Assembly: GCF_000410515.1 (NCBI RefSeq)
Contig: NC_021500.1
Span: 1 to 64,000 of the forward strand
Direction: 5' to 3'
Source: Enterobacter sp. R4-368
Lineage (GTDB): Bacteria; Pseudomonadota; Gammaproteobacteria; Enterobacterales; Enterobacteriaceae
DNA length: 64,000 nt
The notes beneath the pieces were generated by a model. It was not told the DNA's origin and made no database searches. It saw only the letters and a program-made list of their open reading frames with translations. How positions within the stretch are numbered: the first letter of the stretch is position 1; every line of letters begins with the position of its first letter. A program made the translations under genes and the position numbers. Positions 4,382 through 59,716 of this stretch are shown here, in pieces.

Positions 4382-4384
4382 CTG

Positions 4385-4915: not shown

Positions 4916-5247
4916 AATCATTTCCCTGGGAGATGCTTAGACAAAGCAGTGTAAACGAAATCATTGCGCAGGCCACTAGCGGGCAAGAAAATAATGCGTA
5001 ATCGAATGTTTATCATGCGAAAAGTCAAACCTGGCAACAAAGTGCTGCCATTTACGCAACAAAATATCCTCCGTGCTGCGGGGTAAATATTGCGCATCAA
5101 AGCCCTGTTACTTTTACGGATAAGCGTTGTTAAATCGCCAAAATGGATCCCCGATCCCCTTTTTTCTTCATGAGGTACGCTACCTGCACCGGGTGCGGTC
5201 TGGTATGATGAGTGTCCTTTGCTTAGCTGTGTAATGGAAATCTCTCT
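4916..5247. other. dsbB-fadR intergenic region; nhaB absent
   Basis: These 332 bp hold no convincing gene in either direction, and no NhaB-like membrane segments can be read in any frame. The fadR side keeps a promoter-like sequence: TATGAT at 5204-5209 preceded by TG (an extended -10), 38 bp before the fadR ATG. In E. coli this gap is filled by the 1.5-kb nhaB gene. Confidence 0.6.
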
Positions 5248-5967
5248 ATGGTCATTAAGGCGCAGAGCCCGGCGGGTTTCGCGGAAGAGTACATCATTGA
5301 AAGTATCTGGAATAGTCGCTTCCCTCCGGGGTCGATTCTTCCGGCTGAACGCGAACTCTCTGAACTGATTGGCGTCACTCGTACCACATTGCGTGAAGTT
5401 TTACAGCGCCTCGCCCGTGATGGCTGGCTGACAATTCAGCACGGCAAGCCGACAAAAGTGAACAACTTCTGGGAAACCTCCGGGCTGAATATTCTGGAAA
5501 CGCTGGCGCGTCTGGATCACGAGAGTGTTCCGCAACTGATCGATAATCTGCTTTCAGTGCGTACCAACATTTCCACGATTTTTATTCGCACCGCGTTTCG
5601 TCAGCATCCGGAAGACGCGCTGAAAGTGCTGGCCAGCGCGCGTGAAGTTGAAGATCATGCTGATGCCTTCGCTGACCTCGATTACAACATTTTCCGCGGT
5701 CTGGCATTTGCGTCCGGTAACCCAATTTATGGTTTGATCCTTAACGGCATGAAAGGGTTGTATACGCGAATTGGTCGCCACTATTTCTCAAGCCCGGAAG
5801 CCCGCAGCCTGGCGCTCGGTTTCTACCACCAGCTGGCGCAAGTGTGCGAACAGGCGCAGCATGACAAAGTCTACGAAGTTGTGCGCCGCTATGGTCATGA
5901 TAGTGGTGAGATCTGGCATCGGATGCAGAAAACGATGCCGGGTGATTTAGCCTTACAAAGCCGATAA
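5248..5967 (+). CDS. fadR: fatty-acid metabolism regulator FadR
   Basis: FadR is the acyl-CoA-responsive GntR-family regulator. It represses fatty-acid degradation (fad) genes and activates fabA and fabB. Long-chain acyl-CoA releases it from DNA. The product has 239 residues, the same as in E. coli. The N-terminal winged helix (residues 10-72, with PAERELSEL and [11 protein letters not shown]) is essentially unchanged, and the C-terminal all-helical acyl-CoA domain is collinear. It is divergent from dsbB and convergent with ycgB, with a shared hairpin terminator between them. Confidence 0.98.
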
Positions 5968-5973
5968 GCAAAG

Positions 5974-5997
5974 AAAACCCCTCAACAGAGGGGTTTT
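5974..5997. terminator. bidirectional terminator between fadR and ycgB
   Basis: AAAACCCCTC pairs perfectly with GAGGGGTTTT around a 4-base loop. It gives a T-run for fadR on the plus strand and one for ycgB on the minus strand. Confidence 0.9.
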
Positions 5998-6000
5998 TCA

Positions 6001-7533
6001 TTACAGGCTGTTGGCGCGCGGCGGACAACGCTCCAGTAACTCCACACTGCCATCTTCGTTTTGCTGTTCCAGCAACACATCAAAACCCCATAAACGATGC
6101 ACATGTTTCAGCACTTCGCGGCGCCCCTTATCCAGCGGCGCACGGTTGTGCGGAATATAGCGCAGCGTCAGTGAACGGTCGCCGCGCAGATCCACATTCC
6201 ACACCTGGATGTTGGGCTCAAGGTTGCTGAGATTGTATTGCGAGGAGAGTTTCGAGCGGATCTCCCGGTAACCCTCTTCATTATGGATAGCGGCAATCTC
6301 AAGATAATTATTACGGTCATCATCCAGCACGGTAAAGAAGCGGAAATCACGCATGATCTTCGGCGACATAAACTGGCTGATAAAGCTCTCATCTTTGAAA
6401 TCGCGCATCGCGAAATGCAGCGTTTCCAGCCAGTCCGAACCGGCAATATCCGGGAACCAGTAACGGTCTTCATCCGTTGGCGACTGGCAAATACGCTTAA
6501 TATCCTGGAACATCGCAAAGCCCAGCGCATACGGGTTAATGCCGCTGTACCACGGGCTGTTATAGGGCGGCTGGAACACCACGTTGGTGTGGCTGTGCAA
6601 AAATTCCAGCATGAAGCGGTCGGTCACTTTGCCTTCGTCATACAGGTGGTTAAGGATGGTGTAGTGCCAGAACGTCGCCCATCCTTCGTTCATCACCTGC
6701 GTCTGTTTTTGCGGATAGAAATACTGGCTCACTTTACGCACGATGCGCAGGATCTCGCGTTGCCACGACTCGAGTAACGGCGCATTTTTTTCCATAAAGT
6801 AGAGCAAGTTTTCCTGCGGCTCTGCCGGGTAGCGACGCGCCTGCGCGATGGTTATTTCTTCTTCGCGTTTGGGCAGCGTACGCCACAGCATATTCACCTG
6901 GCTTTGCAGATACTCTTCACGGCTTTTCTGCCGTGCTTTCTCCTCCTGCAACGAGATTTTCTGCGGACGTTTGTAGCGATCGACGCCGTAGTTCATCAGC
7001 GCGTGGCACGAGTCGAGTAACTTTTCCACTTCGTCCACACCGTAGCGTTCTTCGCAATCGGTGATGTATTTACGCGCGAAAATCAGGTAGTCGACGATTG
7101 AGCTGGCATCGGTCCAGCTTTTGAATAAATAATTGTTTTTAAAGAAAGAGTTATGTCCATAGCAGGCGTGCGCCATCACCAGCGCCTGCATGGTAATGGT
7201 GTTCTCTTCCATCAGATAAGCGATGCAGGGGTTAGAGTTGATGACTATCTCGTAGGCCAGCCCTTGTTGCCCATGCTTATAAAGCCGCTCGGTTTCGATA
7301 AATTTCTTCCCGAACGACCAGTGAGGGTAATTGATCGGCATGCCGACGCTGGAGTAAGCGTCCATCATCTGCTCTGAGGTGATCACTTCGATTTGGTGCG
7401 GATAGGTATCCAGCCGATAAAGTTTCGCCACCCGGTCAATCTCCGCCAGGTAATCATCCAGCAGTTCGAAAGTCCAGTCGGGTCCATCGCTCAGACGAAT
7501 AGAATCCTTATTCATTGAGTCAATCGTAGCCAT
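6001..7533 (-). CDS. ycgB: SpoVR-family protein YcgB
   Basis: YcgB is the enterobacterial member of the SpoVR family and has 510 residues, as in E. coli. Family members are cytoplasmic proteins of unknown biochemistry. In Bacillus, SpoVR is needed for spore cortex formation. In enterobacteria the gene is RpoS-linked and often works with yeaG/yeaH. The conserved core is visible: NEGWATFWHY, and the GINPYALGFAMFQDI region near the middle. The gene shares its terminator with fadR and is divergent from dadA. Confidence 0.95.
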   Translation of the reverse strand: MATIDSMNKDSIRLSDGPDWTFELLDDYLAEIDRVAKLYRLDTYPHQIEVITSEQMMDAYSSVGMPINYPHWSFGKKFIETERLYKHGQQGLAYEIVINSNPCIAYLMEENTITMQALVMAHACYGHNSFFKNNYLFKSWTDASSIVDYLIFARKYITDCEERYGVDEVEKLLDSCHALMNYGVDRYKRPQKISLQEEKARQKSREEYLQSQVNMLWRTLPKREEEITIAQARRYPAEPQENLLYFMEKNAPLLESWQREILRIVRKVSQYFYPQKQTQVMNEGWATFWHYTILNHLYDEGKVTDRFMLEFLHSHTNVVFQPPYNSPWYSGINPYALGFAMFQDIKRICQSPTDEDRYWFPDIAGSDWLETLHFAMRDFKDESFISQFMSPKIMRDFRFFTVLDDDRNNYLEIAAIHNEEGYREIRSKLSSQYNLSNLEPNIQVWNVDLRGDRSLTLRYIPHNRAPLDKGRREVLKHVHRLWGFDVLLEQQNEDGSVELLERCPPRANSL

Positions 7534-7852
7534 TAGCGCGCCCTCGTTGTTAACGACACTCTCTGTATGGAGCGTCTCATTTCAAGCATAGAACACGCAA
7601 TTAAATCTGTACCTAAGCCATAAATTTTTCTTCGCGATTTTTCATCATATCAACGGCGTAAATGGCAAGTGTTGCGAAATATTATGCTGCGGCGAAAAGT
7701 CGCGCAGCAGGAGATGCTAAATAACAGAAACCCTTGTCATACGGCGAAGCTGTGAGGGAGCTCACCATAAAAAAGCCATATGTTGAATAATATTTTCATC
7801 TGGGTTATCAATTTGTAATCAGATGATCGTGCTTTACTCACAGGAGAGGGAT
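7534..7852. other. ycgB-dadA divergent regulatory region
   Basis: These 319 bp are A+T-rich and hold no gene. They must carry the promoters of ycgB and dadAX. In E. coli the dadAX promoter is controlled by Lrp and CRP. The A+T tracts near 7780-7820 fit Lrp-type binding, but I cannot point to a certain site. A strong GGAGAGGG ribosome site lies at 7842-7849, before dadA. Confidence 0.5.
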
Positions 7853-9151
7853 ATGCGAGTTGTTGTGTTAGGAAGTGGCGTGGTGGGTGTCACCAGCGCC
7901 TGGTATTTACGCCAGGCCGGGCATGACGTCACGGTGATTGATCGCCAGCCGGGTCCCGCGCAGGAAACCAGCGCCGGTAACGCCGGGCAGATCTCACCAG
8001 GCTACGCCGCGCCCTGGGCGGCGCCAGGTGTGCCGTTAAAAGCCATTAAATGGATGTTCCAGCGCCATGCGCCGCTCGCAATTAGCCTCGACGGCACCTC
8101 ATCGCAACTGAAATGGATGTGGCAGATGCTGCGCAACTGCGACACGCGCCACTATATGGAAAATAAAGGCCGCATGGTGCGTCTGGCGGAATACAGTCGT
8201 GATTGCCTGAAACTGCTGCGCGAAACTACCGGTATTCAGTATGAAGGGCGGCAAGGCGGTACATTGCAGCTGTTTCGCACCGCCGAGCAGTACGAAAACG
8301 CCACGCGTGATATTGCCGTATTACAGGATGCCGGCGTGCCTTATCAGCTGCTGGAGTCTGCGCGGCTGGCGGAAGTCGAACCCGCGCTGGCGGAAGTTGC
8401 ACACAAACTGACCGGTGGTTTGCGTCTGCCAAATGATGAAACCGGCGACTGTCAGCTTTTCACCCAGCAACTGGCGCAGATGGCGGCGCAGGCGGGCGTG
8501 GAGTTTCGTTTTAACACCCCGGTGGATCGCCTGCTGTACGAAGGCGAAAACATCTACGGTGTGAAGTGCGGAGAAGAGGTGGTCAAAGCCGACGCGTACG
8601 TGATGGCATTTGGCTCGTGGTCTACCGGCTTACTGAAAAATATCGTCGATATCCCGGTATACCCGCTGAAAGGTTATTCATTAACGATCCCGATTGCCGA
8701 AGAAGACGGCGCACCGGTTTCAACGATCCTGGATGAAACCTACAAAATTGCCATTACCCGCTTTGATCAGCGTATTCGCGTCGGCGGCATGGCGGAAATC
8801 GTTGGCTTTAATACGGAACTGCTGAAACCACGCCGCGAAACGCTGGAGATGGTGGTGCGCGATCTCTTCCCGCGTGGCGGATTTGTCGAGCAAGCAACTT
8901 TCTGGACCGGCCTGCGCCCCATGACGCCAGACGGTACGCCCGTTGTCGGACGCACGCCGTATAAAAACCTGTGGCTGAACACCGGGCACGGCACCCTTGG
9001 CTGGACAATGGCTTGCGGTTCCGGCCAGCTGTTAAGCGACCTGATGTCCGGCAGTACTCCTGCGATTGCTGCTGATGATTTAAGCGTGGCGCGTTATTCG
9101 CCTGGCTTTACCCCTGTGCGCGCGCACCATTTACACGGTGCTCATAACTGA
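7853..9151 (+). CDS. dadA: D-amino acid dehydrogenase small subunit
   Basis: DadA is a membrane-associated FAD/Fe-S dehydrogenase. It oxidises D-alanine to pyruvate and feeds electrons to the respiratory chain, as the second step of L-alanine catabolism. The protein starts [13 protein letters not shown], a clear Rossmann FAD-binding motif, and has 432 residues as in E. coli. I start at 7853 because the CAGGAGAGGG site is correctly spaced there. An upstream in-frame start would add ten residues. The C-terminal [14 protein letters not shown] motif is conserved. dadX follows 18 bp later in the same operon. Confidence 0.97.
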
Positions 9152-45644: not shown

Positions 45645-47873
45645 ATGCAGAACAGAATCACGGCGACGTTACCCGTCGGGGGCTTACTTTTCTGGAAACT
45701 CTCCGGGCGCGAAGCGCTGTCCGAGTCATTTACGCTGGCGCTGACGGTACTGGGCACCGATGCGCGGGCAGACCGCAGCAAGCTGCTGGGGCAATCCGCA
45801 ACCATCAATATTCCCACCCAGGGAACGGGCATGCGCTATATCAACGGCAAAATCACCCGCGTGGCGGTGAGCGCCGTTGAACTTTCGGGGACGCGTTACG
45901 CGGTGTACCAGCTCACCGTGGAGCCGGATTTGTGGCCGATGAAACGCGACCGCAACCTGCGTATCTTCCAGGGCCAGACTGCGCCGCAGATTGTGAAAAC
46001 GCTGCTCGGCGAATATCAGGTGAACGTGGAAGATAAGCTGACCGGCAGTTACCGCACCTGGGATTACTGCGTGCAGTACCAGGAATCGAGCCTCGATTTC
46101 ATCAGCCGTCTGATGGAGCTTGAGGGCATCGCCTACCATTTCCGCCACGAAGCCGACCGCCATGTGCTGGTGCTGACCGACGCGGCGACCGAACATCAGC
46201 CCTTCAGCGGCTACGAAACCATTCCGTATCACCAGACGCCGTCCGGCGGCAGCACGGATGAAGAGGGTATCAGCCAGTGGGCGCTGGAGGACAGCGTGAC
46301 GCCGGGCATTTACAGCCTCGACGATTACGACTTCCGCAAACCGAACGCGTGGCTGTTCCAGGCGCGGCAGAACCCGGCGTCACCGCAGCCGGGCAGCATT
46401 GACGTGTACGACTGGCCGGGGCGTTTTGTCGAGCACGGTCACGGGGAGTATTACGCACGTATCCGCCAGGAGCGCTGGCAGGTGGAGCACCAGCAGATTC
46501 AGGGCACCGCCACGGCGGTTGGTGTCGCACCGGGAAACACCTTCGCGCTGTATAACGCGCCGTTTTTCAGCGATAACGGCGAGTACCTGACCACCGAAGC
46601 GAACTACTTTTTCGAGGAAAACCGCTACGCCAGCGGCTCTGATGGCGAAACGGTGCACCGCATTGATTTCACCGTCATTCCGTCGTCGGTGGTGTTCCGC
46701 CCGGCGGCGGTGACGGCGTGGCCGAAAACCTACGGGCCGCAGACGGCAAAAGTGGTCGGCCCGCAGGGCGAGAGCATCTGGACGGATAAATATGGCCGGG
46801 TGAAGGTGAAATTCCACTGGGACCGTCTGGCGAAAGGCGATGACACCAGCTCCTGCTGGGTGCGTGTGTCGAGTGCCTGGGCGGGGCAGGGCTTCGGCGG
46901 GGTGCAGATCCCGCGCGTGGGCGACGAAGTGGTGATCGACTTTATTAACGGTGATCCGGACCGGCCGATCGTTACCGGGCGTGTCTATAACGAATCCAGC
47001 ATGCCGCCGTGGACACTGCCGGATGATTCAACTCGCATGGGCTTTATGACCCGCAGTAAAGACGGCAGCAAAGACAACGCCAGCTACCTGTTTTTTGAGG
47101 ATCGCGCCGGGAGTGAAGCTGTTGAGTTGCATTCCGAAAAAGATATGAAAGTCTCGGTGGAAAATGACAAGACGGTCAACATTGACGGTAATCGCACGAC
47201 GACCATTCTGAAAGAGCAGAAAGACGATGTCACCGGCGACGCCTCGTTTTACTATCGGGCGAAGCGCACGACTACGGTAGATGAAGCGGAAACCACCACC
47301 TTCAACAACAGCCAGACGGAAACCATCAAGAATGGGCGTACGCTGAATATCACCAGCGGCGGTGATGTTGTTAATATTAAAGGTGATCGTATAACCGATA
47401 TTGACGGCACGAATTTGCATCATGTTACTAAATTAGTTACTGAGAAATTTGATGGTGGCCTTAACACTACTATTGCCAATGGGGTAGCGCTTAATATTAC
47501 AAGTAACGGGAGCCAGCAAAATATTAAGGGTAATGTGCTGGTTAATGTTGAAGGTGATTACACAAAATTGGTATCCAGCAAGATAGTTATAAAAGCACCA
47601 AGCATCGTGTTTGACTCTCCTTCTGTAGAATATACTCATAAAGAAGAAAAGAGTTTTTGGGAGGATTATTTTAGTGCGAAAACAGTGTCATTTGCATTTA
47701 AAGGTGGTGATGCTAGTGTGTCGTTGCTTTCCACGGCTTTCAAAGGAATGGCTTATAATAAAACAGGATTTGAGATTTCTAAAGAGGAAGGCATGGTGGC
47801 GTTTAAAAATACTCTATACCATACGCAAGCAAATTTGCGGAGTATGGCTTTTGCTCTCATGCTAGTATTATGA
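45645..47873 (+). CDS. vgrG: T6SS spike protein VgrG1 with a variable tail
   Basis: VgrG trimers cap the Hcp tube and carry effectors. The 742-residue product has the gp27-like part (1-380), the gp5-OB region (400-450, with GFGGVQIPRVGDEVVIDFINGDPDRP) and a long beta-helix of VgrG/DUF2345 type (480-640). From about residue 640 to the end lies a specific tail (KSFWEDYFSAKTVSFAF, then a hydrophobic end, SMAFALMLVL). Base composition turns A+T-rich from about 47400. Residues 1-450 are almost identical to VgrG2. The tail is followed at once by small membrane proteins that look like immunity genes, so the tail could be a toxin or an effector-binding site. Neither is proven. Confidence 0.93.
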   Translation: MQNRITATLPVGGLLFWKLSGREALSESFTLALTVLGTDARADRSKLLGQSATINIPTQGTGMRYINGKITRVAVSAVELSGTRYAVYQLTVEPDLWPMKRDRNLRIFQGQTAPQIVKTLLGEYQVNVEDKLTGSYRTWDYCVQYQESSLDFISRLMELEGIAYHFRHEADRHVLVLTDAATEHQPFSGYETIPYHQTPSGGSTDEEGISQWALEDSVTPGIYSLDDYDFRKPNAWLFQARQNPASPQPGSIDVYDWPGRFVEHGHGEYYARIRQERWQVEHQQIQGTATAVGVAPGNTFALYNAPFFSDNGEYLTTEANYFFEENRYASGSDGETVHRIDFTVIPSSVVFRPAAVTAWPKTYGPQTAKVVGPQGESIWTDKYGRVKVKFHWDRLAKGDDTSSCWVRVSSAWAGQGFGGVQIPRVGDEVVIDFINGDPDRPIVTGRVYNESSMPPWTLPDDSTRMGFMTRSKDGSKDNASYLFFEDRAGSEAVELHSEKDMKVSVENDKTVNIDGNRTTTILKEQKDDVTGDASFYYRAKRTTTVDEAETTTFNNSQTETIKNGRTLNITSGGDVVNIKGDRITDIDGTNLHHVTKLVTEKFDGGLNTTIANGVALNITSNGSQQNIKGNVLVNVEGDYTKLVSSKIVIKAPSIVFDSPSVEYTHKEEKSFWEDYFSAKTVSFAFKGGDASVSLLSTAFKGMAYNKTGFEISKEEGMVAFKNTLYHTQANLRSMAFALMLVL
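45651..46992 (+). repeat. 1.35-kb direct repeat shared by vgrG1 and vgrG2 (copy 1)
   Basis: From the second or third codon of vgrG1 to the codons for Val-Tyr-Asn-Glu the DNA matches the same region of vgrG2 (copy 2 at about 56614-57955) with only scattered, mostly silent changes. The copies are 10,963 bp apart in the same orientation, and similarity stops abruptly at the start of the beta-helix. This is large enough for homologous recombination, which would delete or swap everything between. Confidence 0.9.
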
Positions 47874-47893
47874 ATAAATTGAAGAGGAACGTA

Positions 47894-48199
47894 ATGGGTT
47901 ATTTACTGCTAATTGCAATGGCGGCTGTATTTCTTATTATCATTTATAAAGGTACCGCCAGGCATGACAGATTGATGCGTGACGGGCGGCCTGTTATGGC
48001 GACGATAGAAAATGTCACCCCAGTCAGTTCTGATGATGCCGGTAATACAACAATTGTTTATACGCTCAATATAGAAGGTCGGCATGTTAAAGGGAAAGAA
48101 AAAATTGACACGTTTTTTTCGCCACAATTTCAGCCGGGGATGCAGATAAAAATTATGTATATCAATGATGAAGATTATATGTTTGTTTTTAAAAAATAA
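47894..48199 (+). CDS. small DUF3592-like membrane protein A (probable immunity)
   Basis: The product of about 101 residues has one membrane helix (residues 2-18) and then a soluble beta-rich domain with DGRPVMATIENV and PGMQIKIMYI. The layout of helix, small beta domain and a final (V/I)xYxxxxP-type strand is that of DUF3592 proteins. AGAGGA precedes ATG 47894. An earlier in-frame ATG at 47870 overlaps the vgrG1 stop (ATGA) but lacks a ribosome site. A close paralogue stands at 50387. An immunity role is inferred from position after vgrG1. Confidence 0.65.
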   Translation: MGYLLLIAMAAVFLIIIYKGTARHDRLMRDGRPVMATIENVTPVSSDDAGNTTIVYTLNIEGRHVKGKEKIDTFFSPQFQPGMQIKIMYINDEDYMFVFKK

Positions 48200-48436
48200 T
48201 TAAAAATATATGCCAGGCCTGTGAGGCATCGAGTACTCGGTGATCGCAAGCCTGTATATCTATGTCGTAGTGGTCATCGACTTTATTAGACGAAGTTGAA
48301 TATCGGTAAACGGTATATGCACAAATACTTATTCTGTTATCGGTGGCGATGGTGATGTGTAAACCTAATAATAGTGAGTAATAGGCTGCAACCATTAATT
48401 AATGACGGCGTTAACATTTTTTATAACAGAGGGACA

Positions 48437-48808
48437 ATGAGTTATTTATCGTATATTATGCCTAAGCTTGCCTGGTTTATACCACTGTGCATATTGCTTT
48501 TTGTTGGGTATGTTGTTTATAAGAACAGGCAGCGTGATGCTCAGGATGCTTATATTAAAGAGCATGGCGTTAGCCTCGATGCTGAAATATCAGATGTAGT
48601 TTAAGATAAGATTCAAAGGATAAGCAATTATTTTGTGGTGGTAGCGTCAGTCAAATATAATTACAGTGATAAAATTTTTGTTTCCAAAAGAGGCTTTTCT
48701 TTCTTGATTACTGAAAAAGAAAAAATTATTCTTGGGCAAATCATCAAAATCAGAGTCAATCGTAACATGCCTGAGCAGTTTTATTATGAAGATTATCAAA
48801 ACTATTAA
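48437..48808 (+). pseudogene. DUF3592-like gene with in-frame TAA at codon 56
   Basis: ATG 48437 follows GAGGGAC and starts a protein with one helix (MPKLAWFIPLCILLFVGYVV). At codon 56 a TAA (48602-48604) interrupts, but the same frame then continues for 67 codons with a normal soluble part (VASVKYNYSDKIFVSKRG, QIIKIRVNRNMPEQF) up to TAA at 48806. The full frame would give 123 residues of DUF3592-like layout. So this is one gene broken by a single nonsense change. Restart or suppression is not excluded. 237 bp of A+T-rich DNA without a gene precede it. Confidence 0.7.
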
Positions 48809-48919
48809 CAAAAATCTTTAAAGGGTAGTGTGTTTGATGGTGTATTAATTCAGGTTTGGCTGTTTATTCGTTATCAGTGTCGTCAGATCGAAATATATAT
48901 TAATCAAGGAAATCTCTCC

Positions 48920-49294
48920 ATGGATTATTTGAAGATCCTGCATATCATTTTGGTTGGGCTGGTAGCAGGACTTATCATTTATTTGATCTGCAGGGACATA
49001 GTTTGGGGGGTGATGAAAAAAATCATTCTTAGAAATCCGGTCTATACCCATGCGACTATCTCAGCCGTTATGCCAGGAACGCCGTCATCAAACGGATTGG
49101 TTAACTTAACGATCGATTATGAATTTAAAGATTTAACTGGAGCGAACTACTCGCGCAAGAACGTACTGACAATAATTAAAACAATTAACCTTATCGAATA
49201 TCAGATCGGTAGTACCGTTCCGGTTGTCTATTTACGTACTAATCCTGAAAAACATTTTCTGAATGAAGGGAAAGATGGTGTGTTGATCAGGTGA
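48920..49294 (+). CDS. small DUF3592-like membrane protein B
   Basis: ATG 48920 follows CAAGGA and gives 124 residues. One helix (residues 8-24) is followed by a basic stretch and a domain with HATISAVMPGTPSSNGLVNL, DYEFKDLTG and TVPVVYLRTNPEKH. The last motif is characteristic of DUF3592. It is a clear paralogue of the protein at 51438, with which it shares the MDY(L/F)K start and the PGTP-like motif. The longer open frame from 48830 has no ribosome site. Confidence 0.7.
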   Translation: MDYLKILHIILVGLVAGLIIYLICRDIVWGVMKKIILRNPVYTHATISAVMPGTPSSNGLVNLTIDYEFKDLTGANYSRKNVLTIIKTINLIEYQIGSTVPVVYLRTNPEKHFLNEGKDGVLIR

Positions 49295-49359
49295 ATCTCT
49301 ATTGTCACCATACCATTAACGAATCCAAAGTTTGTTGTTAGTCCAATTTGTTTATTTAC

Positions 49360-49752
49360 ATGGCAGTGAATATGAGTGCTTTTACAGAAACTCCCTTAAT
49401 AATCGGCGTTATCGTATCTATCCTGGGGATTATACTGGCCTTTTCAACATTAAAGCCGAATAAAGATGAAGTTACCACTCTGCGTGACTGGTCATCCAGA
49501 GAAAAGTGGAGTGGTCAAATTATTGAGACGTCACTTGAATCATGGCATCAAACAGATACCAAGTACGGCAATGATTTTTTATACGATTTTACTTTTACGG
49601 CTACTATTAATGACACAAGGAAAAAATATGTCGCAAAAGGTCTGGTTAGACCTAATGAGATACATAAGATTCAGAAAGGGTTAACTCTAATAATAAAATA
49701 TAATGCTGATAATCCACCACGTATAGCTGTGATAGCTATCGATTATAAATGA
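49360..49752 (+). CDS. small DUF3592-like membrane protein C
   Basis: The product of about 130 residues has one helix (residues 14-31) and then TTLRDWSSREKWSGQII, NDFLYDFTFTATI and LIIKYNADNPPRIAVI. It resembles the protein at 51040 and the remnant at 50847. No strong ribosome site is seen, so starts at 49360 and 49372 are both possible. The soluble part would face one side of the inner membrane and is the likely toxin-binding part if this is an immunity protein. Confidence 0.6.
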   Translation: MAVNMSAFTETPLIIGVIVSILGIILAFSTLKPNKDEVTTLRDWSSREKWSGQIIETSLESWHQTDTKYGNDFLYDFTFTATINDTRKKYVAKGLVRPNEIHKIQKGLTLIIKYNADNPPRIAVIAIDYK

Positions 49753-49894
49753 AGCCTATATTATTTTTTAAATAATGAATAATGATGGTTTTGAATTGGC
49801 ATCATATATATATCATTTCTTTAGTATTACATTTTAGCTGAAGTTATTCATTAAAAGCCATCTTATCGATAAATATAAATCTTAAGAGGTTATA

Positions 49895-50221
49895 ATGTTC
49901 ACTGGCGATAATGTTGGCCTGATATTAAGCATTGTAGCGCCATGCTTCCTCATTTATTTGGTATTCCATACAGGGATGGTTCATGATGATTTTAAAAAGA
50001 ACGGTATAAGGACAGTTGCTAAGATAAATAATATCAAGCAAATATCCACTTCAGGTACTGGTTCGCCAAAATGTGTCTTTACGCTTTCGTTTACTACCCA
50101 AGATGGTCACGATATAAGTCTGGAAAAAAAACAGGTCGTTACTGTGTTAGATATGATGCCTCTCGAGCGAGAACGCAAAGTGGATATTTACTACAAGAAA
50201 GAAAATCCTAAAAAGATATGA
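49895..50221 (+). CDS. small DUF3592-like membrane protein D
   Basis: ATG 49895 follows AAGAGG. The 108-residue protein has one helix (residues 7-25), then RTVAKINNIKQIS, KCVFTLSFTTQDG and KVDIYYKKENPKK. It has the DUF3592-like plan but is the most diverged member and has no close paralogue in the array. The DNA is strongly A+T-rich, unlike the core genome. It ends just before the vgrG relic. Confidence 0.6.
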   Translation: MFTGDNVGLILSIVAPCFLIYLVFHTGMVHDDFKKNGIRTVAKINNIKQISTSGTGSPKCVFTLSFTTQDGHDISLEKKQVVTVLDMMPLERERKVDIYYKKENPKKI

Positions 50222-50275
50222 CTAATACTTGAATCAGAAAGCCGGATAAAGTAATGACAATTATGGTTAGGTCGC

Positions 50276-50338
50276 GACGATGTCACCGATGATACCTCAT
50301 TCCACTATCGTGCGAAGCGCACGACCACAGTAGATGAA
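50276..50338 (+). pseudogene. 63-bp relic of a vgrG beta-helix region
   Basis: This stretch matches vgrG1 at 47224-47286 at about 85% identity. Its translation, DDVTDDTSFHYRAKRTTTVD, corresponds to DDVTGDASFYYRAKRTTTVD in VgrG1. The flanks do not match. Immediately downstream is a paralogue of the gene that follows vgrG1. It is therefore the scar of an earlier vgrG tail that lay here. Confidence 0.85.
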
Positions 50339-50386
50339 TATGTCTGCACAATTGACTATGTATTTATGAAAAAAGGAATGAGCAAT

Positions 50387-50695
50387 ATGATGGGGATTTT
50401 ATTAGCGATTGGCATGATTTCTGCGCTTGTTATTATGTGTTTTATTTCTGTTAATAAAAGGGAAAGAATAATTCGTGAAGGCCGCCCGATTATGGCCGTG
50501 ATTGAAAATATCAGGCCCGTTTCCACGGATGACTCTGGGAATACAACTGTAGCTTATGTTTTAAATGTGGAAGGGCGTAAAATTGAAGGTCGTGAAAAGA
50601 TTGATACCTTCTACGCTCCACAGATGCAACCTGGTATGCATATAAAAATCATGTATGTCGATGATAAACATTTTGTTTTCATTTTTGAAAAATAA
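50387..50695 (+). CDS. small DUF3592-like membrane protein A', paralogue of A
   Basis: The protein of about 102 residues is very close to protein A at 47894: one helix, then EGRPIMAVIENIRPVSTDD, KIDTFYAPQMQPGMHIKIMY and a C-terminal VFIFEK. Like protein A, it stands directly behind vgrG sequence, here the relic. AAAAGGA precedes the start region. ATGs at 50366 and 50378 are alternatives. It is a duplicated, diverged immunity candidate that outlived its vgrG. Confidence 0.7.
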   Translation: MMGILLAIGMISALVIMCFISVNKRERIIREGRPIMAVIENIRPVSTDDSGNTTVAYVLNVEGRKIEGREKIDTFYAPQMQPGMHIKIMYVDDKHFVFIFEK

Positions 50696-50846
50696 AATAT
50701 GTATAATAGAAAAGATTAATGCTCGCTATTGTTTATTCGTACTGATGTTCAGGAACGGTCGAATAGCTCATTCGCTGCGAAATGGTTTGAGAATATTGCT
50801 TGGGTGCTAATAAATTAAAGGGAGGAGACGCTGTTTTTAACTACTG

Positions 50847-51017
50847 GATAATGACTTCTTTTATGATATTCGCTTTCACCTGCCGGGCGGTGATCAACTC
50901 TACACTGCTAAAACACTGGTGAACATTTCTCAGTTGCCATTGATCCAACCTGGACTGCGAATCAGAGTGAAGAAAGGAAGCGAAGGCCGCTTAGCGGTCA
51001 TTAAAATTGAGTTTTAG
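50847..51017 (+). pseudogene. C-terminal remnant of a protein C-type gene
   Basis: An open stretch of 56 codons ending at TAG 51015-51017 reads NDFFYDIRFHLPGG, then IQPGLRIRVKKG and LAVIKIEF. This aligns with the last 55 residues of protein C (NDFLYDFTFTATI to IAVIAIDY). The N-terminal helix part is gone, and a stop lies just upstream at 50838. The next gene begins inside or just after its end. Confidence 0.7.
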
Positions 51018-51039
51018 CGAAGATAAGGTATTGCCATTC

Positions 51040-51438
51040 ATGACGGACCTCATTGCAAAAAACCTCACGCTCTTTTCATGGTATATATTGGCTATTTTTA
51101 TTTACCTTTTCATTAAAGGTCTGCGTGAGCCTACCGGCGATGCGAAATTAATCCAGTATCGTGCAACGTTACGTGACTGGTATGGCCCTGAAAAAGAGGG
51201 CGTGCTGGAAACATGGGCACCGTTAAAATCAACGCCAAAAGGCGAATATTTTCTATTCCATTTCATCATTGTGATTGATCGGAAAACGCAAAAGAAAAAA
51301 GCAGCGGCTTTAATTAATGCAAGTGATATCGAAAGGTTAAAGCCGGGCCTTAAGTTGCGCATAAAATATCAAGGGTTGCTTACAAAGAAAATCGCTGTCG
51401 CCGATATTGTTTTTGATGAATCATTTCAGGAAACGTAA
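51040..51438 (+). CDS. small DUF3592-like membrane protein C'', paralogue of C
   Basis: The 132-residue product has one helix (residues 10-26) followed by RATLRDWYGPEKEGVLETW, GEYFLFHFIIVID and LKLRIKYQGLLTKKIAV. It has the same plan as protein C. ATG 51040 is used; a TTG at 51007 would overlap the remnant gene. It overlaps the next gene in TAATG, so the two are co-translated. Confidence 0.65.
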   Translation: MTDLIAKNLTLFSWYILAIFIYLFIKGLREPTGDAKLIQYRATLRDWYGPEKEGVLETWAPLKSTPKGEYFLFHFIIVIDRKTQKKKAAALINASDIERLKPGLKLRIKYQGLLTKKIAVADIVFDESFQET

Positions 51439-51800
51439 TGGACTATTTTAAGTATCTTGCTTATCTCTTTCCCGCGCTGGTAATTATTGTTTTTATTAAA
51501 ATCGCGATTCGCGATATAAAAAACAACCGAATAAAAAAGCGCATCGCCAGCGATCCTGTGCATGTTAATGCGCGAATAACTCAGGCCGTGGCGGGAACGC
51601 CCGCGCCAAATGGCATCGTCAATGTCACACTGGATTATGAATTTAACGATCATACCGGCAAGGTTTTCACACAACAAAATGTGGTTACCGTGGTGAAAAC
51701 GATGGAGATGCTTAACTATAAAGCGGGCGAAACCGTTCCGGTCATTTATTTGCGCAGCGATCCTTCGCTCAATAAGGTTAATCTTCCGCGCGTATTTTAA
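51438..51800 (+). CDS. small DUF3592-like membrane protein B', paralogue of B
   Basis: The 120-residue protein is a clear relative of protein B: MDYFKYLAYLFPALVIIV helix, then HVNARITQAVAGTPAPNGIV, DYEFNDHTG and TVPVIYLRSDPS. It starts on the last base of the previous gene's stop codon. It is the last member of the array. The adaptor operon starts 85 bp later, where base composition returns to G+C-rich. Confidence 0.7.
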   Translation: MDYFKYLAYLFPALVIIVFIKIAIRDIKNNRIKKRIASDPVHVNARITQAVAGTPAPNGIVNVTLDYEFNDHTGKVFTQQNVVTVVKTMEMLNYKAGETVPVIYLRSDPSLNKVNLPRVF

Positions 51801-51885
51801 ATTCATAAATTATTTCATCGTAAGGCGCTCTTTCCTGACGTTAAAAAAACGCCAACGATACGCTTAATCTTCCAAAGGATGTTAT

Positions 51886-54426
51886 ATGAAGATTATTAAA
51901 CCGCTGCGGCTGAGTGTGCTTAATCGCCCATTTCGCCTGCAGGGGCAAAATCACCTGGGTGTTTCTGTTCTCGCGCTGCTGGATATGAGCGCGCAACCAA
52001 AATTACGTCCTGAAGTCGAGTTGTGGCAGCTGGCCGCCAGCGAGTTGCAAACCAGCGGCGGCGTGCTGGATATGGCAATGCCGAAAGCGCGCGCCGAATT
52101 CCTCGCTACCGGCTTCGCTTATTCGCACCATCATCAGGATAAAACCGCGTGTGCGGTGCGCATTGAAATCGGTGAGCTCAGTAAAACGCTGGCCGTCACC
52201 GGCGATCGCTACTGGGCCGGTTCGCGCCCGACCGCCGCCAAACCTTTTGAACAGATGCGTCTCGACTGGAGCCGCGCTTTCGGGGGCGAAGGTTTTGAGG
52301 AAAACCCGCACGGTATCGGCGCCGTGGAAGAAAACCACAACGGCACCCGATTTCGTCGCCTGCCTAATATTGAACTCTTAAATCAGCGTGTCACGTCTCC
52401 GCGCGCAAAACCTGAACCAGCCTCTTTCGGCCCGCTGGATCTTCTCTGGCCTCGCCGCTTTCGCCGGATGGGTAAAAACTACGATGCCCGCTGGTTGCAG
52501 TATGATTTCCCCGGTTTTGCGCCCGATATTGACTGGCGGGTATTTAACGCCGCCAGCCCCGATCAGTGGTGGGAAGAGCGGGATGCGCTACCACCGCAGG
52601 CCGCATGGCGCATCTGGAATATGCACCCGGAGCAGCATTTGCAGGAAGGCACGCTGCCGCCGTGGCAGGCGCGCTGCTTTATGCAGCGCCAGCGCGGCGA
52701 TGAGATCCTGTTTGAAGAGATCGCGTTGCGCGCCACTACGGTGTGGTTTTTCCCGCATCTTGAACAGATGGTGCTTATCTGGCAGGGCAATCAGCGTGTC
52801 AATGAAGACGATGCGGCAGACGTTTTGCAACTGATGCCTGCGCTGGAAAAAATCGGTGCTCCCCGCTCGGTCAACCACTATCGCAAAGTGCTCCATCAGC
52901 GTCTGGATAAAGAGAAAGGCGCGCTGTTTGCCTTCCGTGAAAAAGATTTGATACCTGAAGAGGTTATCGGCCCGTGGATCGACAGCGAGGTACAGGAAAA
53001 CCACAGCCCGATGCGTGATAACCAGCAAAACCGCGCCATGCAGCTGCGCGAGCAGCATCGTGCGCGGCTGGAAGCACAGGGCGCGGATACCGCCGATCTG
53101 CTCCAGGAGATGGAGGAGCCCGCACTTCCGAAGCTGGAGGATTTGCCTGAGTTTATCGAAGAGATGGAGCGCAAAGCCCGGCAAATGCAGGCGCAGGCCG
53201 AAACACGCAAAGCAGAGATGGAGGCGCGTTTCCCGCAGATGAATGCGCAGGAAAACCAGCCGCGCGGGCCGGAATCGATGATGCGCATGCAGGATTTACT
53301 GGAGCGCAACGCCGACAGCATGAGTGAGAAAAAGCTAAAGCAGAGCCGGGAAGCGCTGCACAAACTCTATCTGATGTCTGCCGCCGAACAACCACCTGCC
53401 ATCAAACTGACTGGCGATATCGCGCTGATTATTCGCCAGCGTGCCGAAAGAACGATGGCGCAGGGCGGGGATTTCAGCGGGCTGGATCTGACCGGCGCGG
53501 ATTTTTCCGGCATGGATCTCCGTGGTGCCAATTTCCGCAATGCACTGCTGGAGTGTGCCAACCTCAGCCAGTGCCAGCTTGACGGCGCTGATTTCAGCAA
53601 TGCGATGCTGGCGCGTACGGATTTACAGGGTGCCTCGCTTTGCGAATGCAACTTCACCGAAGCAAGTCTTGCGCTGGCGCAGTGCCACCAGACCAATTTC
53701 ACCGGTGCGCAGTTTACAGAATCGGAAATGACCGATGCGCTGTTTGACGCGTGTGATTTCAGCCATGCACGGCTGGAAAAACTACTGCTGCGTAAAACTG
53801 GCTTTAGCCAGTGCGTATTCCGTCACGCGACGCTGGATAATTGTGTGTTTATGGAACTTACGCTGCCGCAACCTGACTTTAGCGCGGCAACAATGAATAA
53901 AAGCAGTTTTATCCAGTGTGATCTGCAAAGTGCCTCTTTTGCCGGGGCACATCTGGAAGGCTGTTCCTGGGTAGAGAGCCGCCTGGAGCGAGCCCTGTTT
54001 CGTGACGCCACGCTTATCACCTGTGCGGTGGCATCCGGAGGCACGCTGTGCGGTGCAGATTTCAGCGGCGCGCAGCTAAAGCAGAGCAATTTACGCCAGG
54101 CGGTACTGACTGACGCCCGTTTCGTTCGCGCGAAGCTCGATAACAGCGATCTCAGCGAGGCGCAATGTGAAGGGGCGGATTTTAGCGGTGCGACGCTAAC
54201 CGGCAGTCTGTTTATGCGTACTGATTTTCGACGTGTGCGTTTTACCGACGCCAATTTAATGGGCGCGATGATGCAAAAAAGCCGTCTTGAAGGTGCCGAT
54301 CTCAGTTTCAGCAATCTGTTCCGCGCCGATCTTTCCCAGTCGATAGCGGACAGCACCACGAAATTTGAGGGTGCCTATAACAAACGCGTGAAAACCCTGC
54401 CGAAGCGCGACGGGGAGGTGATATGA
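51886..54426 (+). CDS. DUF2169 adaptor fused to pentapeptide repeats
   Basis: DUF2169 proteins are T6SS adaptor-chaperones that help load PAAR-linked effectors onto VgrG. This 846-residue protein has DUF2169 in residues 1-320 (RPFRLQGQNHLGVSVLALLD, FGPLDLLWPRRFRRMG), a charged helical linker at about 380-500 (EEMERKARQMQAQAETRKAE) and some 30 pentapeptide repeats from about 525 to the end (pattern A(D/N)(L/F)xx). The repeats would form a right-handed beta-helix. AAAGGATG precedes the ATG. It overlaps the next gene by four bases. Confidence 0.9.
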   Translation: MKIIKPLRLSVLNRPFRLQGQNHLGVSVLALLDMSAQPKLRPEVELWQLAASELQTSGGVLDMAMPKARAEFLATGFAYSHHHQDKTACAVRIEIGELSKTLAVTGDRYWAGSRPTAAKPFEQMRLDWSRAFGGEGFEENPHGIGAVEENHNGTRFRRLPNIELLNQRVTSPRAKPEPASFGPLDLLWPRRFRRMGKNYDARWLQYDFPGFAPDIDWRVFNAASPDQWWEERDALPPQAAWRIWNMHPEQHLQEGTLPPWQARCFMQRQRGDEILFEEIALRATTVWFFPHLEQMVLIWQGNQRVNEDDAADVLQLMPALEKIGAPRSVNHYRKVLHQRLDKEKGALFAFREKDLIPEEVIGPWIDSEVQENHSPMRDNQQNRAMQLREQHRARLEAQGADTADLLQEMEEPALPKLEDLPEFIEEMERKARQMQAQAETRKAEMEARFPQMNAQENQPRGPESMMRMQDLLERNADSMSEKKLKQSREALHKLYLMSAAEQPPAIKLTGDIALIIRQRAERTMAQGGDFSGLDLTGADFSGMDLRGANFRNALLECANLSQCQLDGADFSNAMLARTDLQGASLCECNFTEASLALAQCHQTNFTGAQFTESEMTDALFDACDFSHARLEKLLLRKTGFSQCVFRHATLDNCVFMELTLPQPDFSAATMNKSSFIQCDLQSASFAGAHLEGCSWVESRLERALFRDATLITCAVASGGTLCGADFSGAQLKQSNLRQAVLTDARFVRAKLDNSDLSEAQCEGADFSGATLTGSLFMRTDFRRVRFTDANLMGAMMQKSRLEGADLSFSNLFRADLSQSIADSTTKFEGAYNKRVKTLPKRDGEVI

Positions 54427-56507: not shown

Positions 56508-56607
56508 CGGCACACGCAACGCACAGTAATTTTCCACCTAAAAAAACGAACGCACAGGCAACAGCAAGTGCGCTTTCCGGTGATTGATTTTTTACGGAAT
56601 CATGGTT

Positions 56608-59217
56608 ATGGCGAACAGAATCACGGCGACGTTACCCGTCGGGGGCTTACTTTTCTGGAAACTCTCCGGGCGCGAAGCGCTGTCGGAATCATTTACGCTG
56701 GCGCTGACGGTACTGGGCACCGATGCGCGGGCAGACCGCAGCAAGCTGCTGGGGCAATCTGCAACCATCAATATTCCCACCCAGGGAACGGGCACGCGCT
56801 ATATCAACGGCAAAATCACCCGCGTGGCGGTGAGCGCCGTTGAACTTTCGGGGACGCGTTACGCGGTGTATCAGCTCACCGTGGAGCCGGATTTGTGGCC
56901 GATGAAACGCGACCGCAACCTGCGTATCTTCCAGGGCCAGACTGCGCCGCAGATAGTGAAAACGCTGCTCGGCGAATATCAGGTGAACGTGGAAGATAAG
57001 CTGACCGGCAGTTACCGCACCTGGGATTACTGCGTGCAGTACCAGGAATCGAGCCTCGATTTCATCAGCCGTCTGATGGAGCTTGAGGGCATCGCCTACC
57101 ATTTCCGCCACGAAGCCGACCGCCATGTGCTGGTGCTGACCGACGCGGCGACCGAACATCAGCCCTTCAGCGGCTATGAAACCATTCCGTATCACCAGAC
57201 GCCGTCCGGCGGCAGCACGGATGAAGAGGGTATCAGCCAGTGGGCGCTTGAAGACAGCGTGACGCCGGGTATTTACAGCCTCGACGATTACGACTTCCGC
57301 AAACCGAACGCGTGGCTGTTCCAGGCGCGGCAGAACCCGGCATCACCGCAGCCGGGCAGCATTGACGTGTACGACTGGCCGGGGCGTTTTGTCGAGCACG
57401 GTCACGGGGAGTATTACGCACGTATCCGCCAGGAGCGCTGGCAGGTGGAGCACCAGCAGATTCAGGGCACCGCCACGGCGGTTGGTGTCGCACCGGGAAA
57501 CACCTTTGCGCTGTATAACGCGCCGTTTTTCAGCGATAACGGCGAGTACCTGACCACCGAAGCGAACTACTTTTTCGAGGAAAACCGCTATGCCAGCGGC
57601 TCCGACGGCGAAACGGTGCACCGCATCGATTTCACCGTCATTCCGTCGTCGGTGGTGTTCCGCCCGGCGGCGGTGACGGCGTGGCCGAAAACCTACGGGC
57701 CGCAGACGGCGAAAGTGGTCGGCCCGCAGGGCGAGAGCATCTGGACGGATAAATATGGCCGGGTGAAGGTGAAATTCCACTGGGACCGTCTGGCGAAAGG
57801 CGATGACACCAGCTCCTGCTGGGTGCGTGTGTCGAGTGCCTGGGCGGGGCAGGGTTTCGGCGGGGTGCAAATCCCGCGCGTGGGCGACGAAGTGGTGATC
57901 GACTTTATCAACGGTGATCCGGACCGGCCGATCGTTACCGGGCGTGTCTATAACGAAGCGAGTATGCCGCCGTGGGCATTACCTGCTGCTGCCACGCAGA
58001 TGGGCTTCCTCAGCCGCTCGAAAGATGGATCGGTCGATAACGCCAACGCCCTGCGCTTTGAAGACAAGGCGGGCGAAGAGCAGGTGTGGATCCAGGCGGA
58101 ACGTAACATGGATGTTCACGTCAAAAACGACGCCTCGCGCTCGATCGGCAGTAACCACAGCCACTATGTACGTAAAAATGAGCTGTACCGCGTCGAAACA
58201 AATCAGACTCAGGCCGTGAAAGGGCAAACGGAAATCCTTACCGGCAAAGGCAAGCTCGATGCGGTGGTGGAGCAGTTTATTCTGGCTTCCGGGACGCAAC
58301 TGCGGCTGGTATCCGGTCACAGCGCCATTGAGCTTAATGCGAATGGCAAAATCAACCTGATTGGTAAATCCTTTAACTTCTTTGTCGAAGAAGATGGGCA
58401 CATTACCACCGGCGGTAAGTTGCATCTCAATGCTCCCGGAACAAAAGCCCCGACTACCGCGCCAGGAGCTGACCATAAAGGGAATATTAACTCTGCGGTA
58501 CAGGCGAAATTTTCCCCGCAGGGTAACGTGCAACACGCGGCCCCTGTGGCAGCGGCTCCGGCGGGGGCGGCCAAACCGGTGACGAAATACAAAGCGCCAC
58601 CGCCGCTGAAGGGGGATTATGTTTTTAGTAACGAGAAGAGTAAAAGTCAATTCATGCCGTTCAGTGATGGCGTGGTGAAGAAAATAAACAGTTCCCCCAA
58701 AATGCAGAGCGATTTAAAAAAGCTCATGGATGATCAGTGGAATATATCACCTAACGTTCCAGGGGGTGGAAGCTGGACCGATACGAAAAATAAAGTCATG
58801 GTATTAGATCCGGAAAGTATGGCGGATGATAATGAAGCGGTCATGACGCTGGCGCATGAAGTCGGCCATGCGACCAGCCCCTATAAAAATGACTTCAGCT
58901 CAAAAAGTAATTTTGTTAACGGCATGCTTAAAGATGAAGGGCAGGCCACGCTGAATGAAATTCAGGTCCGCCGCGAAATTTATCATAATAGCGGTATAGA
59001 TATTGGCTCAATGACTGACTCATCGAATGAGATGAAATATATCCAGGCATTTAAAGATATGGACAGCGGAAAAATAACCCGCGATGAAGCCAGTAAAGCA
59101 ATTGGAGAAATTTACCGCAGGGGTGAAGTTGCATCCGGTTCAACTACCAATGAAGTTTATGAAGACCATTACGGGAATATGTACGATGACTATATGCAAG
59201 GTAAGGCACCTCACTAA
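56608..59217 (+). CDS. vgrG: evolved VgrG2 with C-terminal zinc-metallopeptidase domain
   Basis: Residues 1-450 are nearly the same as VgrG1. A shorter, different beta-helix (about 460-610) and a Pro/Ala-rich linker (620-665) follow. The last 200 residues are an added domain with His750-Glu-Val-Gly-His754 (LAHEVGHATSPYKNDF) and Glu777 in KDEGQATLNE, matching the HExxH plus distant Glu plan of zinc peptidases. This should be a toxin carried directly by the spike. The start at ATG 56608 aligns with VgrG1 (ATG 56602 also possible). The 3' end overlaps a lipoprotein gene, the likely immunity gene. The target is unknown. Confidence 0.93.
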   Translation: MANRITATLPVGGLLFWKLSGREALSESFTLALTVLGTDARADRSKLLGQSATINIPTQGTGTRYINGKITRVAVSAVELSGTRYAVYQLTVEPDLWPMKRDRNLRIFQGQTAPQIVKTLLGEYQVNVEDKLTGSYRTWDYCVQYQESSLDFISRLMELEGIAYHFRHEADRHVLVLTDAATEHQPFSGYETIPYHQTPSGGSTDEEGISQWALEDSVTPGIYSLDDYDFRKPNAWLFQARQNPASPQPGSIDVYDWPGRFVEHGHGEYYARIRQERWQVEHQQIQGTATAVGVAPGNTFALYNAPFFSDNGEYLTTEANYFFEENRYASGSDGETVHRIDFTVIPSSVVFRPAAVTAWPKTYGPQTAKVVGPQGESIWTDKYGRVKVKFHWDRLAKGDDTSSCWVRVSSAWAGQGFGGVQIPRVGDEVVIDFINGDPDRPIVTGRVYNEASMPPWALPAAATQMGFLSRSKDGSVDNANALRFEDKAGEEQVWIQAERNMDVHVKNDASRSIGSNHSHYVRKNELYRVETNQTQAVKGQTEILTGKGKLDAVVEQFILASGTQLRLVSGHSAIELNANGKINLIGKSFNFFVEEDGHITTGGKLHLNAPGTKAPTTAPGADHKGNINSAVQAKFSPQGNVQHAAPVAAAPAGAAKPVTKYKAPPPLKGDYVFSNEKSKSQFMPFSDGVVKKINSSPKMQSDLKKLMDDQWNISPNVPGGGSWTDTKNKVMVLDPESMADDNEAVMTLAHEVGHATSPYKNDFSSKSNFVNGMLKDEGQATLNEIQVRREIYHNSGIDIGSMTDSSNEMKYIQAFKDMDSGKITRDEASKAIGEIYRRGEVASGSTTNEVYEDHYGNMYDDYMQGKAPH

Positions 59218-59716
59218 AATAATCGTAATGACATTCGCTTTATTCTCCTCATTTTATTCATGCGCAGAAGAAAATAATATGAAAGTACAATCATTATGGC
59301 AATTCGCGACACAGCTTAAAAACACAGTCGGCCAGGATGTAGAAGAACTGGATGCAATCATTCCCGGCAGATTTGTGCGTGAAGATCCCAATATTGCGGA
59401 GAGATTAAAAGCAGAACCGTTCACGATTGACGGCGGTATTGAAATCAGAAATATGGAAGTCCGTCTTGATCTGCATAATCCGGGTAAGGTTTATATCATT
59501 TCTTACGATGTCGCGAATGCCGATATTTTGTTAGAGGACGTCAGGAAAACCTACCCGCAATTAAAGTTAATTGATGTTCCGCGCGGGCGTTCTAAAGATG
59601 AAACTTTCTCCTGGATCACACCACTTGATGAAAAGGGAAATGGCATTGGATTTGGTTTTCCTTATGCGCAACCCTCTTATTTAAAAAATATGACCCTCAG
59701 GAATTTTCAGGATTAA
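59186..59716 (+). CDS. lipoprotein, probable immunity to the VgrG2 metallopeptidase
   Basis: The family is not recognised. From ATG 59186 the 176-residue product has a lipoprotein signal: basic start (KVRHLTK), a hydrophobic core, then FYSC with Cys26. The mature part is about 150 residues without membrane segments and ends in an LKNMTLRNF stretch. The gene overlaps the end of vgrG2 by 32 bp, which is typical of toxin-immunity pairs. A periplasmic lipoprotein would fit a toxin that acts in the periplasm. ATG 59228 is a shorter alternative but cuts into the signal. Confidence 0.65.
   Translation: MTICKVRHLTKIIVMTFALFSSFYSCAEENNMKVQSLWQFATQLKNTVGQDVEELDAIIPGRFVREDPNIAERLKAEPFTIDGGIEIRNMEVRLDLHNPGKVYIISYDVANADILLEDVRKTYPQLKLIDVPRGRSKDETFSWITPLDEKGNGIGFGFPYAQPSYLKNMTLRNFQD

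Follow-up and report, generated by a model that had tools for sequence, protein, structure and literature searches.

Why should one vgrG gene of a type VI secretion system (T6SS) be followed by a long row of small genes for predicted membrane proteins? The question is raised by a stretch of 64,000 nucleotides from Enterobacter sp. R4-368 (NC_021500.1, positions 1 to 64,000; hereafter the window), taken from a genome of 5.16 Mb in 2 contigs, where a Kosakonia T6SS locus carries an array of short genes between vgrG1 and a gene encoding a DUF2169-pentapeptide repeat protein. Open reading frame (ORF) calls place seven intact and two broken short genes between vgrG1 (45645-47873) and the DUF2169 gene (51886), all on the + strand and in the 5' to 3' order A, P (broken), B, C, D, A', F-remnant, C'', B'. 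An earlier reading of the letters alone (the original prediction) counted two broken genes, as we do, but six intact ones, and interpreted the row as an immunity bank tied to the VgrG1 tail. Our own answer is that the array is very probably a T6SS immunity-gene bank built up as one VgrG C-terminal tail after another was exchanged, in which the tail would be toxic and the gene behind it would encode the antidote. The features on which the argument draws are as follows.

45645..47873, + strand: vgrG1 (742 amino acids), core in common with vgrG2 of the same locus to about residue 640
47565..47873, + strand: VgrG1 tail, residues 641-742, type T1, hydrophobic C-terminus; proposed toxic module
47870..48199, + strand: A, DUF3592-like, one predicted transmembrane segment; proposed cognate immunity gene of the T1 tail
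48266..48288, + strand: possible vgrG scrap (marginal), where homology to K. pseudosacchari begins (48286)
48437..48808, + strand: P, immunity-like gene broken by an in-frame stop
48920..49294, + strand: B, orphan immunity-like gene
49324..49362, + strand: scrap of a vgrG 3' end, tail type T8 (K. quasisacchari, P. ananatis)
49360..49752, + strand: C, orphan immunity-like gene
49895..50221, + strand: D, orphan immunity-like gene
50276..50338, + strand: vgrG scrap, 90% to K. quasisacchari vgrG and 84% to vgrG1
50366..50695, + strand: A', second A-type gene, 52% to A
about 50847..51017, + strand: remnant (C-terminal part) of a type F gene
51040..51438, + strand: C'', C-type gene
51438..51800, + strand: B', B-type gene, last in the array
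51886..54426, + strand: DUF2169-pentapeptide repeat gene bounding the array

The vgrG-to-DUF2169 intervals of 12 other genomes of the genus were compared together with 78 loci from named genomes that encode a related VgrG core (the best 80 of 397 VgrG-core relatives, 78 of them distinct). Loci were placed in the same class as the window when a gene of 85-165 amino acids (aa) with a transmembrane (TM) segment lay within -30 to +60 nucleotides (nt) behind VgrG, the thresholds for gene length, TM score and distance having been chosen after inspection of the data. Such a gene is present in 32 of the 78 loci; among the other 46, L103 is probably a class member cut by the end of its contig, and in L107, L109 and L119 a TM gene lies farther off, at +89 to +134 nt. 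Leaving out one duplicate (L078, identical to L077) and adding five loci from genomes of the genus, our own included, gives 36 loci; genomes G160 and G161, where the vgrG beside the array is broken or shortened, stand outside this set. Across these 36 phylogenetically non-independent loci from several genera, distances between tails (the last 90 aa) follow distances between first genes with a Mantel r of 0.94 (partial r 0.94 given the core, 110 aa of VgrG; reached in 0 of 5000 permutations), the corresponding values being 0.21 for tail and core and 0.16 for core and gene. The tails fall into 13 clusters and the genes into 11, with an adjusted Rand index of 0.78. Where a second TM gene is found within 1 kb (21 of the 36 loci), the tail correlates with gene 1 at r 0.93 and with gene 2 at only r 0.24. 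Tail and gene 1 thus behave as a single unit of exchange, which mostly extends no further than gene 1.

Searches with type E and type F first genes in 295 genomes each, partly overlapping the first set, yielded 60 loci with 29 distinct tails. Fifteen of these tails are less than 97% identical to the data set; the 14 at or above 97% were left out of the match count. A classified gene stands directly behind the tail in 15 of 15 cases and is of the matching type in 13, compared with a chance expectation of about a quarter (calculated by hand from the type counts). It might be argued that tail and gene 1, being adjacent, simply travel together and that the small genes have a role unrelated to the tail, which would also suit the existence of related genes in Streptomyces and in rows away from any vgrG match. 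Mere hitch-hiking of this kind is hardly credible, since the adjoining VgrG core scarcely co-varies (r 0.16-0.21), nor does gene 2 (0.24), and Kosakonia and Pantoea both have the T8-C pair.

Across related genomes, the downstream genes of the array match genes that stand first behind other VgrG tails. A is the first gene behind the window's own tail and the only array gene that pairs with it; a similar tail-A pair lies in G160, lacking the VgrG head and beside further vgrG remnants. For C, identity is 98% with the gene in first position behind the K. quasisacchari VgrG and 50% with its P. ananatis counterpart. The two pieces of P have 62% and 48% identity with the gene standing first behind a K. 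cowanii VgrG, and intact relatives of P directly follow VgrG tails in K. cowanii and Pluralibacter gergoviae, while the first gene behind the K. pseudosacchari VgrG is 46% identical to B and 54% to B'. The remnant at about 50847-51017 is 58% identical to the type F first gene of G157, and D is 96% identical to the second gene of K. quasisacchari. Counterparts that stand first elsewhere, as expected for the orphans of an immunity array, are thus found for P, B, C, B' and the F-remnant, weakly for D and not closely for C''. These matches support the view that the array genes that could be assigned, apart from A (perhaps A'), answer to tails other than that of VgrG1. The original prediction had instead supposed an expansion against variants of VgrG1's own tail, and in this it is not upheld; its broader proposal, an immunity bank tied to VgrG tails, gains support from the tail-first gene matching and from the vgrG scraps and orphan conservation described below. 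Pure tandem duplication was considered as the origin of the array and ruled out, the copies being nearer to other genomes than to each other when compared by pairwise identity rather than by trees: B shares 90% with a K. pseudosacchari B gene and only 43% with B', and C shares 98% with its K. quasisacchari counterpart and only 35% with C''.

Remains of vgrG, a feature absent from the original prediction, lie between the array genes, as in orphan immunity arrays. The strongest scrap, at 50276-50338, scores 87.8 bits; that at 49324-49362 scores 38.3 bits, and a third, at 48266-48288, is marginal with 33.7 bits (37.4 under another query). In 100 first-order-resampled arrays, searched on the plus strand only, the best score with the same two vgrG queries was 31.0 bits; with all 79 queries the best three were 42.8, 34.6 and 33.7 bits, so that 1 of 100 exceeded 38.3 and 3 of 100 reached 33.7. 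The scrap at 49324-49362 (39 nt) corresponds to the extreme 3' end of a vgrG of the K. quasisacchari type, with C directly after it, and forms the start of a 973-nt match at 93%: window positions 49324-50288 are 93% identical to K. quasisacchari, beginning inside the 3' end of its vgrG, behind which C is the first gene. This layer has the appearance expected of the window before A, P and B stood in front. Further layers match K. pseudosacchari (48286-49444 and 49741-50323 at 86-87%, 50850-51974 at 96%) and the distal array of G157 (50352-50708 at 92%, 50850-51958 at 90%). Because the orphans match genes that are first behind other VgrG tails, and because C follows a vgrG-type scrap, growth of the array appears to have been mainly by tail replacement.

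The old tails survive in the array as DNA scraps only, a tblastn search for tails as protein fossils within it having returned none at E<0.1 (best 0.14); tails lacking a VgrG head do precede an A-type and an H-type gene in G160. Profiles of the small-gene types gave 76 matches over 13 intervals (the window included; 2 to 12 per interval), 57 of them full length and none on the minus strand, in a count that takes the halves of P as two and uses profiles containing some of these sequences. Genes of the first-gene type are left behind in order and kept, and erosion has reduced the old vgrG ends to scraps. Of the regions seen, the one that documents tail exchange most richly lies in G160 (L054, about 2766-8123, reverse strand), with several broken vgrG pieces and headless tails between small genes.

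The ratio of nonsynonymous to synonymous substitution rates (dN/dS) is 0.14-0.28 for pairs of C'', 0.07-0.27 for B', 0.15-0.20 for D and 0.18 for B; it is 0.44 for C, with few changes, and 0.00-0.07 for the DUF2169 gene. In the pairwise comparison of A', 92 of 105 aa and 290 of 315 nt are identical. The orphan genes are kept under purifying selection. This bears on the proposal that gene 1 is a tail-specific adaptor or chaperone for the loading of VgrG or its cargo, and the array a row of old adaptors. T6SS loci often carry adaptors, DcrB-family genes also lie near this locus, and the same co-variation of tail and gene would be predicted. An adaptor would be useless without its tail, yet the orphans are intact and under selection, and known T6SS adaptors are soluble whereas the array products carry a predicted TM anchor; we therefore consider this role for gene 1 quite unlikely.

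The distance from gene 1 to the DUF2169 gene is only 50 nt in locus L077 and 199 nt in L067. No other small gene fits into these gaps, which leaves gene 1 as the only candidate antidote in both. The same two loci argue against a very unlikely scheme in which gene 1 is itself a small membrane-acting cargo toxin borne by the tail and the array a toxin store: there is no room in them for an antidote gene between gene 1 and the DUF2169 gene, and orphan toxins stored without antidotes would be suicidal. The scheme would account for small TM proteins adjoining vgrG and would agree with the interpretation of vgrG islands in Pantoea and Erwinia as effector islands (PMC3235180).

In the immunity-bank model that we favor, the last 60-100 residues of VgrG would constitute a small toxic module, and the gene directly behind would encode a predicted membrane-anchored, DUF3592-like antidote, whose partnership with the tail is taken from the co-variation and whose neutralizing action we infer. 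An incoming tail-plus-antidote module would recombine at the conserved vgrG core, the old tail would be cut off and the old antidote pushed downstream, where it would presumably be retained since it still protects against kin using the old tail. The tail may act at the inner membrane, for example by perturbing or depolarizing it; this is a guess, about evenly balanced, made because the tails end hydrophobic and their partners carry a predicted membrane anchor.

All seven intact products, of 108-132 aa, have one N-terminal hydrophobic segment and no second by the Kyte-Doolittle (KD) scale, in agreement with the single helix originally proposed. The paralogue sets A/A' (52% identical) and B/B' (43%) were likewise correctly recognized, and the set of C, a remnant and C'' nearly so: C and C'' are 35% identical over 89 aa, but the remnant is nearest to type F, which is itself related to C. 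D had been thought to stand alone and proves weakly A-like (32% over 57 aa, E 1e-5; E-values for these comparisons are from a small database). The description of the products as DUF3592-like may hold for the wider family, of which 15 of 30 members match DUF3592 (PF12158) at E<=0.1 (best 4e-7) and in which some relatives of A carry the NCBI name DUF3592 domain-containing. It does not hold formally for the window, where none of the seven intact proteins exceeds the Pfam gathering cut-off and the domain is listed at all only for B (E 0.023) and B' (E 0.15); Pfam and NCBIfam returned little on single window products.

A comparison of profiles for 12 types, which sets the products against each other, links most of them. 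A, B, D, L, E, G, K and P form a network in which many, not all, pairs reach 82-99% (weak pairs being A-E at 27, A-G at 38 and G-P at 11); C, C'' and F are tightly tied (97-100%), type E bridges to C (90%) and C'' (85%), and the only ties of type H are to E (84%) and P (68%). When the columns behind the TM segment were shuffled, 0 of 132 comparisons reached a probability of 50%. Given these links and the clean null, a shared fold across the small-gene types is likely. A sequence search of the PDB gave no convincing relative of the small genes (best E 0.008).

The tail of VgrG1 comprises 102 residues past the part in common with vgrG2, or 122 past the alignment to P. aeruginosa VgrG1, whose solved chains align up to VgrG1 residue 620; a C-terminal extension behind the spike core, as in specialized VgrG effectors, is therefore present. 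The T1 type is rare. It occurs in 2 of 15 genomes of the genus (our own included) and in our own genome only among 295 genomes of the order, and a protein search with it gave 2 proteins, one of them VgrG1 itself; it pairs with A-type genes. Class tails are hydrophobic at the end, the last six residues having a mean KD value of 2.10 (n=36, lowest 1.00) as against -1.09 in the 46 other VgrGs, 45 of which lie below 1.00; the sole other VgrG above 0.98 is that of L103, whose contig ends just behind.

Several observations weigh against the immunity-bank model. The locus with the nearest tail is also that with the nearest gene in only 25 of the 36 cases, the correlation of tail with gene 2 is likewise above chance (12 of 2000 permutations reach it), and 2 of the 15 further pairs disagree (C-tail/F-gene, H-tail/K-gene). 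Physical linkage of neighbors would alone yield some tail-gene correlation, which sequence cannot fully exclude. D is only 31% identical to the first gene behind a K. cowanii VgrG, and C'' has no close counterpart in first position among the loci compared (best 35% over 89 aa). The TM-helix score used is reached by none of the 36 tails, and membrane action is unproven; a headless tail ORF in G160 just attains that score (1.7). A cytoplasmic soluble domain is the more frequent outcome for the partners in a crude charge count (22 N-out, 7 N-in and 14 ties, n=43), which gives no simple fit with a periplasmic antidote. Finally, A-type relatives occur in many Streptomyces (e.g. P0021, P0025, P0028), which are not known to have a T6SS of this kind, so that the small domain or fold is not confined to T6SS immunity.

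The TM scores and the charge count bear on the target. A variant of the same model, with a toxic tail and a protective gene 1 but a target other than the membrane (e.g. peptidoglycan, or a periplasmic or cytosolic enzyme), would accommodate both. It would not lead one to expect that tails so diverse end hydrophobic in 36 of 36 cases, or that the window's tail, the only one scanned, has no enzyme domain in Pfam or NCBIfam. We regard the variant as a serious possibility, though one somewhat short of even. With a probability close to even, but still just below it, we propose that the VgrG needle itself ends in a polymorphic toxin: a tail, short and hydrophobic at its end, that would attack the inner membrane. 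About a dozen specificity types would exist across Enterobacterales, each paired with a DUF3592-like membrane antidote of its own; length cut-offs would help to hide them from effector surveys, and the orphans would record the tail changes of each lineage.

As to the setting of the array, the original prediction was right that the genes run in one direction behind vgrG1 in A+T-rich DNA. The G+C content is 31-46% across 500-base windows of 47250-51999 and 52-63% in those wholly outside 47000-51750, with an exception of 50% around 45.0-45.7 kb. The start that had been given for A, 47894, is an inner ATG; the ORF begins at 47870 and overlaps the vgrG1 stop. The DUF2169 gene is present in 13 of 15 genomes of the genus, our own included. 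The array DNA has no near match in the E. coli collection, and a search of genome contigs with A gave no match. A scan for promoters and terminators found 16 promoter-like and 3 terminator-like sites, as against 15.7 and 3.2 in shuffled sequence, a level that permits no statement on separate promoters in the array. Further along the window, vgrG2 (56584-59217) has a core nearly the same as that of vgrG1 and a long tail with a zinc-protease-like HEVGH motif, noted by eye and with no Pfam match there; the gene at 59084-59716 overlaps the vgrG2 end and may be the antidote of that tail.

Related genes were also seen in rows elsewhere. In G160, contig C1 at about 662.3-666.0 kb (L055, about 4341-7972) carries a same-strand row of eight matches to types B and P, seven of full length, with no vgrG match in the 14 kb fetched; the row adjoins genes that by eye resemble a betaine transporter operon and is perhaps an immunity island away from any vgrG. 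On the same contig, at about 3814.7-3817.0 kb (L056, 5664-8047), five B-like matches lie in a row beside two gene copies that look chitinase-like by eye, again with no vgrG match in 14 kb fetched. In our own genome (G000 C2:1820776-1821126; L152, 1498-1869), a lone type E gene stands beside a gene for a substrate-binding-protein-like product. It may be an orphan left after vgrG loss, because in K. quasisacchari (L068) a vgrG with its tail, an E gene and a very similar second gene adjoin the same kind of substrate-binding-protein-like gene.

If the proposal is correct, some VgrGs counted as plain structural spikes would be weapons, and genes annotated as hypothetical or DUF3592 would gain a testable role. 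Ordered old antidotes and vgrG scraps would make the attack and defense history of a lineage readable, and which strains resist which tails would become predictable from sequence.

Among known systems, the locus resembles specialized VgrG effectors in that a toxin would be fused behind the VgrG spike and an antidote gene would adjoin it, and differs from them in its much shorter extension. Such effectors include V. cholerae VgrG-3 and P. aeruginosa VgrG2b (PMC11148199). The large survey in that article kept only VgrGs longer than 796 aa with extensions of at least 120 aa, and a survey of Serratia dropped extensions shorter than 120 aa (PMC12165300). VgrG1, at 742 aa, is below the 796-aa limit and is thus excluded; one class member, the K. 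pseudosacchari VgrG of 797 aa, just passes the survey length. The vgrG islands of Pantoea and Erwinia (De Maayer 2011, PMC3235180) are alike in their low G+C content, variable VgrG C-terminus and same kind of place, with 7 of 13 T6SS-1 VgrGs extended; unlike here, they were interpreted as effector islands, and the main text of that paper does not contain the word "immunity." A study of P. ananatis states that its T6SS-1 VgrGs are without C-terminal extension (PMC3942780).

Ionophore toxins of contact-dependent inhibition (CDI) and their CdiI proteins likewise combine polymorphic small toxins with polymorphic small membrane antidotes, but in the account cited these are helical ionophores on CdiA, with antidotes predicted to be two-helix hairpins of 72-100 residues (Halvorsen 2024, PMC11630599). 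The array products are of another build, with one predicted TM segment and a small domain. A close parallel is with the T6SS immunity arrays of V. cholerae, a described system of the same general form; the original prediction had known of none of this exact form. As presented by Kirchberger (2017, PMC5361080), those arrays occupy a variable region between an effector-immunity module and a conserved gene, their orphan genes correspond to the cognate genes of other strains, part of a vgrG-3 effector survives between immunity genes, and new modules enter beside vgrG while older genes are pushed back. The toxins and antidotes differ: what is exchanged here would be a VgrG tail of small size, with antidotes that seem to belong to a single DUF3592-like group and occur in different genera of Enterobacterales. 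We found no paper in the open-access literature searched that treats DUF3592 together with type VI secretion. Growth of the array thus appears to be of a known kind, that of the V. cholerae model, whereas the toxin-antidote family looks new as far as these literature searches reach; the new element would be a family of short VgrG tails, polymorphic and hydrophobic at the end, whose partners are DUF3592-like.

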